The position numbers were made by a program, and so were the translations under genes. 34,118 nucleotides of DNA from Methanolobus sp. Lineage in GTDB: Archaea > Halobacteriota > Methanosarcinia > Methanosarcinales > Methanosarcinaceae. Positions 8,612 to 34,118 of the stretch are shown in pieces. The notes beneath the pieces are model-generated. The model was not told the DNA's origin and searched no databases. It saw only the letters and a program-made list of their open reading frames with translations. The DNA lies in assembly GCF_016278385.1 (NCBI RefSeq), contig NZ_JADQBY010000024.1, positions 23,304 to 57,421 on the forward strand, read 5' to 3'. Position 1 is the stretch's first letter; the number at the start of each line of letters is the position of its first letter.

Positions 8612-8742
8612 GGCTCTGTAGAAAACATATTGAAATCACTATGTATAGCTAAAATTCAACAAAAATAATCACCATTCAGAACAACATACAGAAGTTTTAT
8701 TGACTGCATTATTGTTTGAATTTGGAGGATTTCTACAGAGCC
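8612..8742. mobile_element. 131-bp MITE with 13-bp terminal inverted repeats
   Basis: The left end GGCTCTGTAGAAA (8612-8624) is the exact reverse complement of the right end TTTCTACAGAGCC (8730-8742). The element is flanked on both sides by the same 8-bp target duplication, CAATTATT (8604-8611 and 8743-8750). There is no open frame inside, so this is a non-autonomous element moved by a transposase encoded elsewhere. Intact duplications mean it inserted fairly recently. An 8-bp duplication fits families such as IS1595 or IS6, but I cannot assign it from the ends alone. Related ends occur at 9197 and 34064. Confidence 0.88.
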
Positions 8743-9103: not shown

Positions 9104-9749
9104 ATGAAGCACCATCCCAGTGCCAACCACCATATAAAGATATATTGCTGCCAACATATAAACTATATCTTAACAGTGTTACTGAACAATAATTTTGGCT
9201 CTATAGAAAATATCAAACTAAAAACATTTAAAAACTAAAAATTAACCACCAAAGATGTATGATCTTATGTGGGAGTGTGGTGGTTAGTGTAGGAGTTGGT
9301 GGTTTAAAAACAGAATCACACCCCTTTTACGCGGGAATGTTGTTTTAATATAATAAATGTATGATTTTAAGCAGTGTCATTTTTTGATTCAATTTTTTTA
9401 TTATACTAAAAATATATAAAGAATTATTATCAGTAAATACTGTGTTCCTGTTGGGTGAGAAGCTTGAATAAAAGGAAAATAATGAATAATCTATATCTCT
9501 TCTAGAACTTGCCGGCTTGCTACAATGAATTTGTGCAGGATAAAGATATTTAACTGCGGGACAGGAACACTCACTAGTGATACTATTGCTAGCCTGAAAG
9601 AGCAAAAAATAGGTTATGTAACATTAAATCATGAGTATTAACACAACAAGTCATACATGTATGACATGCCGCAGCAAGACGTTTCTTCGAACAGGAAACA
9701 CCAACAACCATACAGAATAAAAATAATAAGACTAGTTTTTATAATTTTA
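9104..9749. other. Gene-poor repeat-rich spacer
   Basis: No convincing gene is visible. It holds the diverged MITE end at 9197, an inverted repeat TAACCACCA (9243-9251) with TGGTGGTTA (9278-9286), a further direct copy TGGTGGTTT at 9297-9305, and a perfect 16-bp palindrome GTCATACATGTATGAC (9651-9666) just before the tRNA-Ala gene. An 86-residue frame at 9345-9605 (minus) has no family features or ribosome-binding site. Confidence 0.5.
9197..9213 (+). mobile_element. Solo diverged end of the MITE family
   Basis: GGCTCTATAGAAAATAT differs by one base from the 13-bp MITE terminus and stays similar just inside (AAAATAT against AAAACATAT). It is preceded by AACAATAATTTT, similar to the flank of the intact copy. 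I found no partner end nearby, so this is either a decayed copy or a chance partial match. Confidence 0.45.
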
Positions 9750-28826: not shown

Positions 28827-29285
28827 TTATCTAGTAATCAGCATCTCAGCAGTTTCTGGCTTGTACTTCCAGTCAGCTGGGAGAACCTTTGTAGACTGGT
28901 AGTATTTAACCAATCTTCTTATCTTAGCTTCAGTATTCTGAAGGGAACGCTTGTTGTGTACATCCTTGTGGTTGTAACCCATGTGTTTCCTCATTCTGAT
29001 TGCCTGAACGATAAGGTTGTAGAGATCCTCAGGTACAGCGAATTTTTCACCGTTTTCTCTGAGAATCTTTGTTATTTTTTTACCGGTTGCGATCTTAACA
29101 TCAGGTACTCCGTATTTGTCCCTGAGTACCATACCAATCTCGCTTGTGCTAATTCCCTGCTTCCACAGGTCTGTTACTACAATTGTCACTTCGTCGCTGG
29201 TCATGGTTGACCATGCAGGTGCTTCTGTACGAAGTGGTTTTGTTGGGCCGGATTTACCTTTCTTCCGGGTATGCATTTTTGCCAT
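28827..29285 (-). CDS. rps15: 30S ribosomal protein S15 (archaeal uS15)
   Basis: The 152-residue protein has the archaeal/eukaryotic uS15 layout: a basic start [18 protein letters not shown], the [20 protein letters not shown] helix, and the S15 core with [20 protein letters not shown] and RRLVKYYQ. It binds 16S rRNA in the platform of the small subunit. A strong AGGAGG six bases before the ATG sets the start and suggests high expression. It lies 197 bases downstream of the pilin-like cluster on the same strand with its own AT-rich promoter region. Confidence 0.98.
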
Positions 29286-29482: not shown

Positions 29483-30712
29483 TTACCATATCATGAGTAC
29501 AATGTCTGCACCTGCCGGATTCGCTGTCCTGTATATTGCATCGAGCTGGGTGTTGGCAAGATCCAATCTTGTGCTGCCACCCGTTGCGTTACACATTAAT
29601 GAAATAGTCTGATTTATTTCATCGGCCCTGTAATCCCTGATATGAGATGATATCTGTTCCGTATTCGTATCTGTTATTGATGTATTCATACTTTCCACCA
29701 GATCTAAACCGATGCTTTGAACATCCGGGTTAACTTCTACATTCAACCCGTACAATTGCTTTGTGTAATTCATGCATCCAAGGGCACTCTGTATTACAGG
29801 ATTGCTGTATGTTGTATCATCCGGACCGGCAATACAGGACAATTGCTCACTGTTCACCGACACCTCTGTGCCACTGATAGAAGATAAGTAATCATACGGG
29901 AATACGATCTCTGTGAGAATAACTGAAGAACCCTTTGAGGCAATCTCAATACTGTTGTTGAACATGTCGTGCAGTTCTTTGTCAGGATTTGGAGAACTTA
30001 TCGCAGCATCGATGCTGTTTTCGGAAAAAGGTTCACCTATCTCAGCCCGTGTGAAAGAAAAGGTAAGTGGTAACGTGATCCTTGCCTTTTGTTTAACAGC
30101 ATTTACAGGTGCTTCTTCTCCGATTATTATATCGCTCTGTACCCGGTATCCCGCAACAGGCTGCCAGTGGGCTTCAAATCTGTAATTATACCTCTGCCCA
30201 ATAGTTCTCTCAAGATGGTCTTCTATCTGGTTTTCAGTTTCAATACTTTGCATTTGTGTCATGGGATTAAGAGGTTTTTCAGTGCCATTATCCACCTGAT
30301 ACAGACTCAGTACCAGACTTTCTGCCACCAGGTCGGAAAATGTACGATGATGCTGTTCCTTTGTAAATATGGTTTCTTCGGCATTTTCAAGGATGGAATT
30401 TTCTAAGAGGTTCACATCTATGCCTGCAAGCTCCGTGGGCTTTAATGTGTATTCGAATTCGTCCACAGTACTACCCATAATAGTATTCATAAGGCAAGTA
30501 CCCATATCCTGTGCCGATGTATAGGATGCTGAACGATATTGTTCATCTGCTGTAAGTGTCGGCATAAGAATCACTGCGGAAATTGAGATAAGTACAAGGA
30601 AAATAATAGCATCAATACTAGATGAGAATGCTTTCTCATCCCTGAATATCTCTGTCGAATTGATTCTTTTACCGATGAGTGCAGATTGTTTTGCTGGTCT
30701 CAATAGTCTCAT
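29483..30712 (-). CDS. Anchored secreted protein of the pilin-like cluster (largest member)
   Basis: The 409-residue protein has a basic cytoplasmic head (1-40), one hydrophobic helix (about 36-54: DAIIFLVLISISAVILMPTL), and a large outside domain. The domain has long helical and beta segments, few Cys, many Ser/Thr/Asn, and no recognised enzyme motif. The short N-terminal anchor with a long exported domain resembles minor pilin-like or pseudopilin-like proteins of archaea. It is the last of four such genes, about 30 bases after its upstream neighbour, with GGAG six bases before the ATG. Function unknown. Confidence 0.8.
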   Translation of the reverse strand: MRLLRPAKQSALIGKRINSTEIFRDEKAFSSSIDAIIFLVLISISAVILMPTLTADEQYRSASYTSAQDMGTCLMNTIMGSTVDEFEYTLKPTELAGIDVNLLENSILENAEETIFTKEQHHRTFSDLVAESLVLSLYQVDNGTEKPLNPMTQMQSIETENQIEDHLERTIGQRYNYRFEAHWQPVAGYRVQSDIIIGEEAPVNAVKQKARITLPLTFSFTRAEIGEPFSENSIDAAISSPNPDKELHDMFNNSIEIASKGSSVILTEIVFPYDYLSSISGTEVSVNSEQLSCIAGPDDTTYSNPVIQSALGCMNYTKQLYGLNVEVNPDVQSIGLDLVESMNTSITDTNTEQISSHIRDYRADEINQTISLMCNATGGSTRLDLANTQLDAIYRTANPAGADIVLMIW

Positions 30713-30744
30713 AATTCGCTCCGTTTTTTACCTTATCGCTAGTT

Positions 30745-31254
30745 TCACTCCCACCTGTTCTGCATGATCTTCACAGTGATGGTTCCGGGAACACACCTTG
30801 CACTGCTTCCAAGTTCTATGACAACCGGGATGGATGATGCAATAACATCCCTGCCATCCCGGGAAACTGTTCCTTCTGCAATTGTCCACTGGTAGTTTCC
30901 ATCATCGGTTACTGCTTCAACATAAAAATCCAGATTTGGAGAAAAACGCTGAAAGAACATGTAGCGTTCTTTGTCTGCCGAAGGATCAACTATTCGGTCA
31001 AGTTCTTCAGCAGAAATCAGTTCAGGTCTGCTTCCCTGAAAAGAGGGGGAGGATGCAATATCCTTTGCCATCATGGCAGCCTGCTCATAGCTCTCAAGAG
31101 CTTGAGAATTATCATTGAATGCAATAAATGTCTTTGACAGGATAGCCGCAAATACCACAAATCCAATAACGACCATTGCAGTTGCTATTATATCGTTGTT
31201 AGGTTCAAGAAAAGCACTATCATCACTGATAAACGAGGACATATTCAAGTTCAT
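30745..31254 (-). CDS. Small anchored pilin-like protein
   Basis: The 169 residues have a short head, a hydrophobic helix (about 19-45: NDIIATAMVVIGFVVFAAIL), a helical stalk with NSQALESYEQAAMMAKDIAS, and a beta-rich outside domain ending with VPGTITVKIMQNRWE. A long N-terminal helix continuing into a stalk and a small beta head is the plan of type IV pilin-like proteins; no classical prepilin cleavage site is obvious. Its start overlaps the end of the upstream gene by 32 bases, so they are co-translated. Alternative start: ATG at 31242, better spaced from GAGGTG. Confidence 0.78.
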   Translation of the reverse strand: MNLNMSSFISDDSAFLEPNNDIIATAMVVIGFVVFAAILSKTFIAFNDNSQALESYEQAAMMAKDIASSPSFQGSRPELISAEELDRIVDPSADKERYMFFQRFSPNLDFYVEAVTDDGNYQWTIAEGTVSRDGRDVIASSIPVVIELGSSARCVPGTITVKIMQNRWE

Positions 31255-31906
31255 TCACCTCACTTCCATCTGTAACGAACACCGATGCCCTTTCAATACG
31301 GACTTCCTTACTGGTGTTCAAATAGAATTCTTCTGTTGCCGTAATTGCCAGATATTCAGTAATATCAGTGTAGGGGAATACTGAATTAACAGGATGGCTA
31401 CGATCTCCATTAGCACCTAATTGCCCGTTGAGCAGAATTCTGAGCTGAATTGGACTGAAAGGAAGAGTTTTGTAGCTTAATTGCCGGGCAGCAGAAATGT
31501 TGTGCCCGTTATCTGCAAAGGTGCAAACAACATACTCACCGGAAACTGAGATATCCATCTTATCATAATCAATAAGCTGCCCTGAATATGCATCAAAGCT
31601 GTATGTTTTCACACCGTCCCTAGTGATCGAATGTATACTTCCTGCAGCATCAATATTTGATGCAAGGTCAATAGCAATTACTTCCAATTCATCTTTTTTG
31701 ACCAGGTCAGATGAACTACCTGCCAGACCGTATACTGCAGCAAGTATGATCACAGTTGCAAGAATGAGTGCCGTCTTTGACAGAATCAGGTCAACCCAGG
31801 CATCAGTATTATTTAACAGGTACCTGAAAGTACCTGAACCGTTTTTTTGTGAAACAGCATTCTCCCGTGAAAAAGATGCTATTTCAACTTTTATCCGTTT
31901 TTTCAT
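31223..31906 (-). CDS. Anchored pilin-like protein
   Basis: The 227 residues have a basic head (1-37), a hydrophobic helix (about 43-67: SKTALILATVIILAAVYGLA), then a helix LVKKDELEVIAIDLASNIDA and a beta-rich outside domain. It overlaps its downstream neighbour by 32 bases and starts 12 bases after its upstream neighbour ends. The head carries no signal-peptidase site, so it stays anchored. I do not recognise a named family. It belongs with the other three by topology and arrangement. Confidence 0.78.
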   Translation of the reverse strand: MKKRIKVEIASFSRENAVSQKNGSGTFRYLLNNTDAWVDLILSKTALILATVIILAAVYGLAGSSSDLVKKDELEVIAIDLASNIDAAGSIHSITRDGVKTYSFDAYSGQLIDYDKMDISVSGEYVVCTFADNGHNISAARQLSYKTLPFSPIQLRILLNGQLGANGDRSHPVNSVFPYTDITEYLAITATEEFYLNTSKEVRIERASVFVTDGSEVNELEYVLVYQ

Positions 31907-31917
31907 TACGGATGTGA

Positions 31918-32400
31918 CTAATTACTAAGTACAATAAAAATTTTTCCATTTTGATCGCGAACACTTTCCATGGTTATTGTGTGAGAACCCGGATAGAGGA
32001 TAAAACAACCGTTAAGTGAAGCATTAGAATAAAATGCAGCAGACTCACCTATTGTCTGCTTATCGTCGATCTCAAAATAGTAGTTTTGGGAGTCAGAAGG
32101 CCAGTTATTTTCCTGCCCAGGTATTGCACCCATTACCAGTTTAGTATTGGAAGGAATATCTACATCCAGTGCAATAATACTACCGGCACCCTTTGATGAC
32201 ATCTGCTCGGCATGCGACCCGATATTAGAAATAACAGCTTTGACAGCGTAGCTTTCCTCATTCTCAAGAAGTGAATGAATCCCACTGGAAAGCAGAAGTA
32301 GCAGTGCTGCTATGGCTATAACCGCAACCACCATTCTCATGGGTAGGGCATCTGCTGCCCTTTCATCATTCAGTATTCTGTGCAGGTATTTTTTCATCAT
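31918..32400 (-). CDS. Anchored pilin-like protein, first of the cluster
   Basis: The 160 residues begin with a short basic head ([18 protein letters not shown]), a hydrophobic helix (about 22-44: [20 protein letters not shown]) and a stalk with [19 protein letters not shown], then a beta domain ending with [16 protein letters not shown]. Charged DERA/DDRA-type heads just before a hydrophobic helix recur in archaeal type III prepilin-like proteins. Its ATG overlaps the hisS stop (ATGA, 32400-32397), so translation is coupled to hisS. A second ATG lies three bases on. Confidence 0.8.
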
Positions 32401-33632
32401 TTACATGTGAGTTTTTCAATTACCTCATCGATGGTCAGGAGTTCCTGCTCACCACTGCTCATATCCTTCAAAGTGACCTTTTCGGCTTCAACTTCCTGTT
32501 CACCGATTATAACCACGTGTCTGGCACCGATATTATTTGCATGGGAGAGCTGAGCTTTGAAGTTCCTCTTCATAAGATCATTGTATACCGGCATGTGAAG
32601 ACGGAGTTTCGTTGCAACCTTTACAGCATCCAGACGGGTACTGTCCTTGGCGATGATTACAACCGGCTTATCGTCAGGTGCTTCCAGTTCACAGACTTCC
32701 ATTATCCTGTCAAAACCAAGACCAAATCCTGTGGATGGAACATCTCCCCCACCAAAGAGCTGGATCAGCTGGTATGAACCTCCACCACAAACCTGATTCT
32801 GGGCACCAAGCCCTTCTGCATATATCTCAAAAACCGTACCGGTGTAGTAGTCAAGTCCCCTGGCGATCCCAAAATTAATAGTATACTCTACGCCGTAGGT
32901 ATCCAGAAGTGTAAGAAGTTCCTGGAAGGTTTCTATTTCAGGAATGTTGCCCACCAGTTCCCGTGCCTTTGTAACTGCCCCTTCGCCTGTCAGACAGATC
33001 AGTTCAAGAAGTTTCATCCGCAGGTCGGCAGGTGCATTGATATCTTCAAGGAAGTCATTGAGTCCTGTATCATCTTTTTTGTCAACAAGCCTCATTATCT
33101 TACTCTGGTGCTCTGTTTCCAGAACGCTAAGAAGGTGCCTGATGACCCCCAGATTATTGACGTGAAGGTCACCTTTGATCCCAACTGATTTTAGCATCTC
33201 GCTTGCCAGTGCAATTGCCTCAGCATCAGCATCAGCTCTCTTGCTACCAATAAGCTCCACACCGAACTGCCAGAACTCTCTAAAACGTCCTTTCTGGGGT
33301 CTCTCATACCGGAAGCAGTTCTCAAAATAGAATAGCTTCAATGGCTGCTGGTATGCCTGCATCTCGTTGACGTACATCCTCATGACCGGAGCCGTCAGTT
33401 CCGGGCGCAGAGTCATTTCCCTGTCACCTTTGTCTTTGAAATTGTAAAGTTCTCCTACTATCCCTTCACCAGATTTAAGTGTGAAAAGTTCCAGATTCTC
33501 AAATGTGGGAGTAATTATCTCATTGAATCCCCAGTTCTTAACGACCTGACGCAATATGCTCTCGACATATCTTCTCTTCTTTGTATCCTCAGGGAGGAAA
33601 TCACGGGTGCCTCGTGGTTTGCTGATTTTCAT
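32397..33632 (-). CDS. hisS: Histidyl-tRNA synthetase
   Basis: The 411-residue class II synthetase charges tRNA-His. Motifs: [15 protein letters not shown] (motif 1 region), [15 protein letters not shown], motif 2 [18 protein letters not shown], the histidine-A motif [14 protein letters not shown], and motif 3 [12 protein letters not shown]. The C-terminal anticodon-binding domain spans about 325-411. The length is typical of archaeal HisRS. The ATG at 33632 has AGGT upstream. Its stop overlaps the start of the pilin-like cluster, so hisS is probably the first gene of that operon. Confidence 0.98.
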
Positions 33633-34063: not shown

Positions 34064-34118
34064 GGCTCTGTAGAATTCCTCATTTTGACAACAAGCATAA
34101 CCTTGACATACCTGTCAA
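34064..34118 (+). mobile_element. Terminal repeat of a mobile element related to the MITE, cut by window edge
   Basis: GGCTCTGTAGAATTCCTC (34064-34081) matches the inward-read right end of the MITE (GGCTCTGTAGAAATCCTC, reverse complement of 8742-8725) at 17 of 18 bases, and resemblance continues weakly inside. The element continues beyond the window, so I cannot say whether it is another MITE or a full insertion sequence that supplies the transposase. Confidence 0.65.

Follow-up and report, generated by a model that had tools for sequence, protein, structure and literature searches.

Sets of minor pilins are known from bacteria, where GspH-I-J-K form one and FimU-PilV-PilW-PilX, together with PilY1, another. 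Among the archaeal type IV pilus (T4P) systems, the subclade 4F described by Makarova, Koonin and Albers in 2016 (PMC4858521) is marked by Cys-rich ATPases, a coiled-coil protein, an S-layer-like protein and a stand-alone PilA. The archaeal prepilin peptidase follows a rule of G, A or S at position −1 of its cleavage site and a charge at position −2 (PMC4371748). An operon of the Halobacteria runs DUF7310-DUF7311-ATPase-TadC-DUF7283-DUF7285-DUF7284-DUF7286, in which DUF7310 is a coiled coil, the ATPase is Cys-rich and DUF7286 is a giant protein. Our literature search found no paper naming DUF7284, DUF7285 or DUF7286, and none combining hisS, pilin and Methanosarcinales.

Here, we analyse four genes behind hisS in a Methanolobus genome, within a window of 34,118 nucleotides that is part of contig C21. 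We consider it very probable that their products, P4, P3, P2 and P1, are minor (non-major) pilins of an archaeal T4P whose motor is encoded in trans, because the processing-site pattern, the predicted fold of P4, the DUF family matches, the co-occurrence with a motor and the joint decay agree. An earlier, sequence-only reading of the same DNA had taken the four as a set of minor pilins or pseudopilins serving a surface structure that it left unnamed. The set gains support from the processing site, the P4 model, the gene order and the motor co-occurrence; the structure can in fact be named with fair confidence, as an archaeal T4P, probably of subclade 4F (PMC4858521).

Four prepilin-like proteins between hisS and rpsO

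The four genes are transcribed after hisS in the order P4, P3, P2 and P1, with spacings from hisS onward of −4, +11, −32 and +32 nt (Table 1). Each product has a short N-terminal head, one strong hydrophobic helix and an outer part, and the head is basic in P4, P3 and P1 and not basic in P2. Strand, spacing and helix topology are all as the sequence-only reading had given them. The overlap of hisS and P4 suggests translational coupling; it recurs in many Methanolobus genomes, others having a small gap instead.

Table 1. Features around the pilin block and at the contig end (positions in the window)
Feature	Positions	Strand	Remarks
hisS, histidyl-tRNA synthetase	32397..33632	minus	TIGR00442, E 1.4e-121; heads the presumed transcript
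P4, prepilin-like, 160 aa	31918..32400	minus	First pilin gene; 4-nt overlap with hisS; DUF7311 counterpart
P3, prepilin-like, 227 aa	31223..31906	minus	Orthologues hold this position at almost every locus
P2, prepilin-like, 169 aa	30745..31254	minus	Motif [RKS][GA]xxEP (alignment A5); counterpart of haloarchaeal DUF7285
P1, large prepilin-like, 409 aa	29483..30712	minus	DUF7284 family
rpsO, ribosomal protein S15	28827..29285	minus	Downstream boundary; named from its own sequence
Terminus of repeated (insertion-sequence-like) element	34064..34118		GGCTCTGTAGAA motif; contig end upstream of hisS

That the four proteins are pilin-like is strengthened by a prepilin-type processing site conserved in all four families. 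Scoring the site in alignments of 42–46 orthologues per family, we found G or A at a fixed position directly before the hydrophobic helix, usually preceded by D-E-R/K/S. The residue is G or A in every P4 and every P1 orthologue that has a residue there (41/41 each), in all 46 P3 orthologues, where it precedes an invariant W37, and in 43 of 44 P2 orthologues, the one exception being S. G, A or S at −1 directly before the helix, the pattern of a class III signal peptide, is present in all four families. The −2 residue is R or K in 33 of 44 P2 orthologues and mixed in P4, P3 and P1, with S frequent; a charge is missing there in many P3 and P4 orthologues and in the P2 of the window, which has S. 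One Peptidase_A24 gene in the genome (51.8 bits, cut-off 26.5) encodes a prepilin peptidase.

A pilin fold of helix plus beta head had been proposed as a check on the sequence-only reading, and we made AlphaFold (AF2) models of P4 and P1. The P4 model (mean pLDDT 86.9) combines a long helix (residues 19–70) with an all-beta head, a predicted pilin layout. The P1 model (mean pLDDT 76.5) is not a simple helix-plus-beta structure: its helix (32–80) is followed by a sheet, a helical region (222–397) and a last strand (402–408), and its outer part is mixed alpha/beta. Foldseek searches and VIA second looks with both models gave no significant match to a solved pilin, the best rows being unrelated, and the P4 model matched an archaellin in the helix alone, below significance (Z 2.6, 47 residues, rmsd 1.3). 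Because of these searches we do not take the apparent helical insertion before the last strand of P1 as a sign of GspK homology. The heads of the four proteins diverge fast. In Pfam and NCBIfam searches with single proteins P1 alone among the four scored above cut-off, and a PDB sequence search with P4 as the only query returned nothing relevant.

Haloarchaeal counterparts and a motor in trans

P1 matched PF23955 (DUF7284) at E 2.3e-12 and 47.8 bits (cut-off 27). In family-level comparisons by hhalign, P1 aligned with DUF7284 (97.9%, E 5e-13), P2 with DUF7285 (95.9%, E 6e-9) and P4 with DUF7311 (93%, E 2.4e-7), and these profiles pair one-to-one, with no cross pair scoring. P3 had no detectable sequence similarity to haloarchaeal DUF7283 in the profile comparison, and the two share only a position, in most loci; in one haloarchaeal locus (L104) DUF7283 is placed after DUF7286.

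Given the one-to-one matches and the shared position, the order P4-[ATPase-TadC]-P3-P2-P1-DUF7286 is thus colinear between the haloarchaeal operon and the methanogen locus, with profile matches for P4, P2, P1 and DUF7286. The two differ in that the haloarchaeal operon has its motor genes between P4 and the P3 position, whereas the methanogen block has none, and in the dissimilarity of P3 and DUF7283.

Secretion ATPase, TadC and prepilin peptidase are all lacking from the window, as the sequence-only reading had noted, and a genome-wide search places the matches on other contigs, with five clear and two weaker secretion ATPase loci. On contig C33, an ATPase of 857 aa whose N-terminal part is rich in Cys, the trait of subclade 4F, is followed by a 648-aa TadC-like protein; this ATPase has 10 Cys before residue 226, and the haloarchaeal counterpart that we read has 5 in its first 85 residues. 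Against the ATPases of the haloarchaeal operon it scores 247–300 bits, against 67–104 for four other ATPases of the Methanolobus genome that we compared, and in a tree it joins them at 100/100. A MinD-ATPase-TadC-TadC locus, suspected at first, was dropped as the motor after this comparison of bit scores and tree favoured C33. The partner secretion ATPase and TadC are found in trans, on C33.

We file the system in subclade 4F because the Cys-rich ATPase, the coiled-coil protein, the S-layer-like protein and PilA fit its description; it probably belongs there, being placed by that published description and not by a tree. Shared with 4F are the Cys-rich N-terminal extension of the ATPase, TadC, several euryarchaeal-type pilins, a frequent S-layer-like protein and, in Halobacteria, a coiled-coil protein (here DUF7310). 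By contrast, in Methanosarcinaceae the genes for the ATPase and TadC are separate from the pilin genes, which stand behind hisS, and DUF7286, instead of closing the operon, is divergent in Methanolobus. The machine is of a known kind; our analysis contributes the family assignments, the placing of the motor in trans and the evidence from joint loss.

Gene order, co-occurrence and joint loss

The order hisS-P4-P3-P2-P1-rpsO is found throughout Methanolobus and in most of the Methanosarcinaceae examined. Methanococcoides-like genomes and other family members keep the order from hisS to rpsO with small changes, and in Methanosarcina-like genomes hisS lies about 0.3–4 kb from the block, with rpsO still next after it; rpsO keeps its position even in loci with the pilins deleted. 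As the orthologous genes, all four, keep their order from hisS to rpsO genus-wide and in most of the family, the arrangement is not a product of chance. The relatives named among our loci also include Ca. Methanoperedens, ANME-2 and ANME-3. Ca. Methanoperedens, ANME-2 and a further family (f14) keep P4-P3-P2-P1 without hisS, and many of their loci have DUF7286 immediately after the block; the link to hisS is therefore a local arrangement. The conserved unit is the pilin block, and the hisS linkage is lineage-specific. Gene order in relatives, suggested earlier as a check, is thus conserved and not random, and the picture of a pilin set riding on a housekeeping gene holds within Methanosarcinaceae and fails as a general statement, hisS being missing from the block outside the family.

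In three loci (L036 6892-8228, L050 1784-2116 and L047 4201-5396) single pilin genes are apparently truncated or have a split frame, although the rest of the block is intact; either a sequencing error or early decay may be the cause.

DUF7286 is a surface protein of about 1360 aa with the same N-terminal motif as the pilins, and in relatives it lies upstream of hisS in divergent orientation. In the present genome the last ~60 bp of the window are found again at the ends of several other contigs. The end of contig C35 (the end of L175) bears DUF7286, with a similar terminus right at its N-terminal head. From these matching termini at the window end and the DUF7286 contig end, a mobile element therefore probably lies between DUF7286 and hisS, and it may disturb the start of DUF7286. 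Elsewhere in the window, positions 8612-8742 hold two further exact copies of GGCTCTGTAGAA, inverted and about 120 bases apart, which are perhaps a short non-autonomous element; a one-mismatch copy lies at 9197.

Among 40 relatives, the C33-type TadC occurs in 27 of the 27 that bear P4 and, without P4, in G004 alone. Across 295 genomes of the phylum, DUF7284 is present in 72, TadC in 76 and both in 69 (Fisher p 4e-55, uncorrected for descent). The FlaI/TadA-type ATPase and the TadC whose absence from the window the sequence-only reading had remarked on lie elsewhere in the genome and co-occur with the pilins. DUF7286 is present in most pilin-bearing genomes, and its family profile finds none in G004–G007. 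The laboratory strain Methanosarcina acetivorans encodes both DUF7284 and DUF7286.

In Methanolobus strains without the pilins, the motor and DUF7286 are likewise missing or damaged. Of the pilin block G004 retains, between hisS and rpsO, only the C-terminal 29 residues of P1; its DUF7286 is gone, and its ATPase (L177 5694-7619) is 5'-truncated, with the first ~218 residues missing, and adjoins an intact TadC. G007 has fragments of P4, P1, TadC and DUF7286, the last missed by the family profile and recovered in a closer search; its motor locus gave no match for the ATPase. In G005 and G006 the pilins, DUF7286 and the motor are all gone, with no remnants. In G289, an inserted stretch of roughly 1.1 kb (L185 3896-5034), which carries a transposase-like gene, interrupts P1 at the codon corresponding to residue 165. 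Presence of the pilins and motor varies within other genera of the family too (g12 and g16), and several separate joint losses are therefore likely; that they are spread over more than one genus speaks against common descent as the whole explanation.

Assembly, alternatives and a possible tip complex

On the minor-pilin reading, Sec would insert each precursor into the membrane and the genome's single prepilin peptidase would cut after the G or A, just before the hydrophobic helix. The C33 Cys-rich ATPase and TadC would then assemble the mature helices, probably around a major pilin of PilA type that is encoded apart from them, and the four pilins with DUF7286 would make up the filament's tip or its priming portion. 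Family relations, the cleavage-site pattern, gene order, co-occurrence and joint decay are read directly from the genomes; processing, assembly, a tip role and a function of P1–P4 in adhesion or cell contact are our inference.

It is scarcely credible that the four are common single-pass membrane proteins that have nothing to do with pili and were brought to hisS only by operon drift. The fast-diverging heads and the want of a significant match to a solved pilin would suit such proteins; a cleavage motif conserved in four families, the pilin topology modelled for P4, the haloarchaeal operon with its ATPase and TadC, and co-loss with the motor speak against them. Very unlikely, too, is a partnership with a different T4P motor, at the MinD-ATPase-TadC-TadC or PilB3-like loci, with C33 not specific to the block. 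Pilin sets can indeed be common to archaeal motors (PMC4858521), and few or no pilins lie beside those loci, but it is the C33 motor whose relative is encoded within the haloarchaeal pilin operon and that co-occurs and decays with the pilins.

A pseudopilus-like device for secretion or for the membrane envelope would be a short stack of the four pilins, moved by the ATPase and TadC; DUF7286 would be its cargo or a partner at the surface, and there would be no PilA filament. Four distinct single-copy pilins, one of them large, resemble a pseudopilin set in number, the giant partner protein fits, and no major pilin was recognised beside the block in the loci that we read. Against this, a major pilin of the PilA family (arCOG02981), in most cases encoded by a solitary gene, is linked to subclade 4F (PMC4858521), and the Methanolobus genome carries PilA-type genes, with four Pilin_N matches elsewhere; we regard such a device as unlikely.

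Within the minor-pilin reading, four different single-copy pilins and a pilin-headed giant together suggest a priming or tip assembly. We tentatively raise the possibility that P1–P4 and DUF7286 are a five-part tip or priming complex, an archaeal and perhaps convergent counterpart of the bacterial minor-pilin/PilY1 and GspHIJK tips, with its supply tied to the hisS transcript in Methanosarcinaceae. Likeness to the bacterial sets lies in four different minor pilins, one much larger, and a giant surface protein, and is by analogy alone, as our searches found no sequence or fold match.

The analysis gives names and a likely role to DUF7284, DUF7285, DUF7311, DUF7286 and the unnamed P3 family, and joins a pilin block to a distant motor in methanogens and methane-oxidising archaea (Methanoperedens and ANME-2). 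Archaeal minor-pilin roles become testable in Methanosarcina, which has genetics, and surface filaments in methanogens and methane oxidisers may matter for cell contact.
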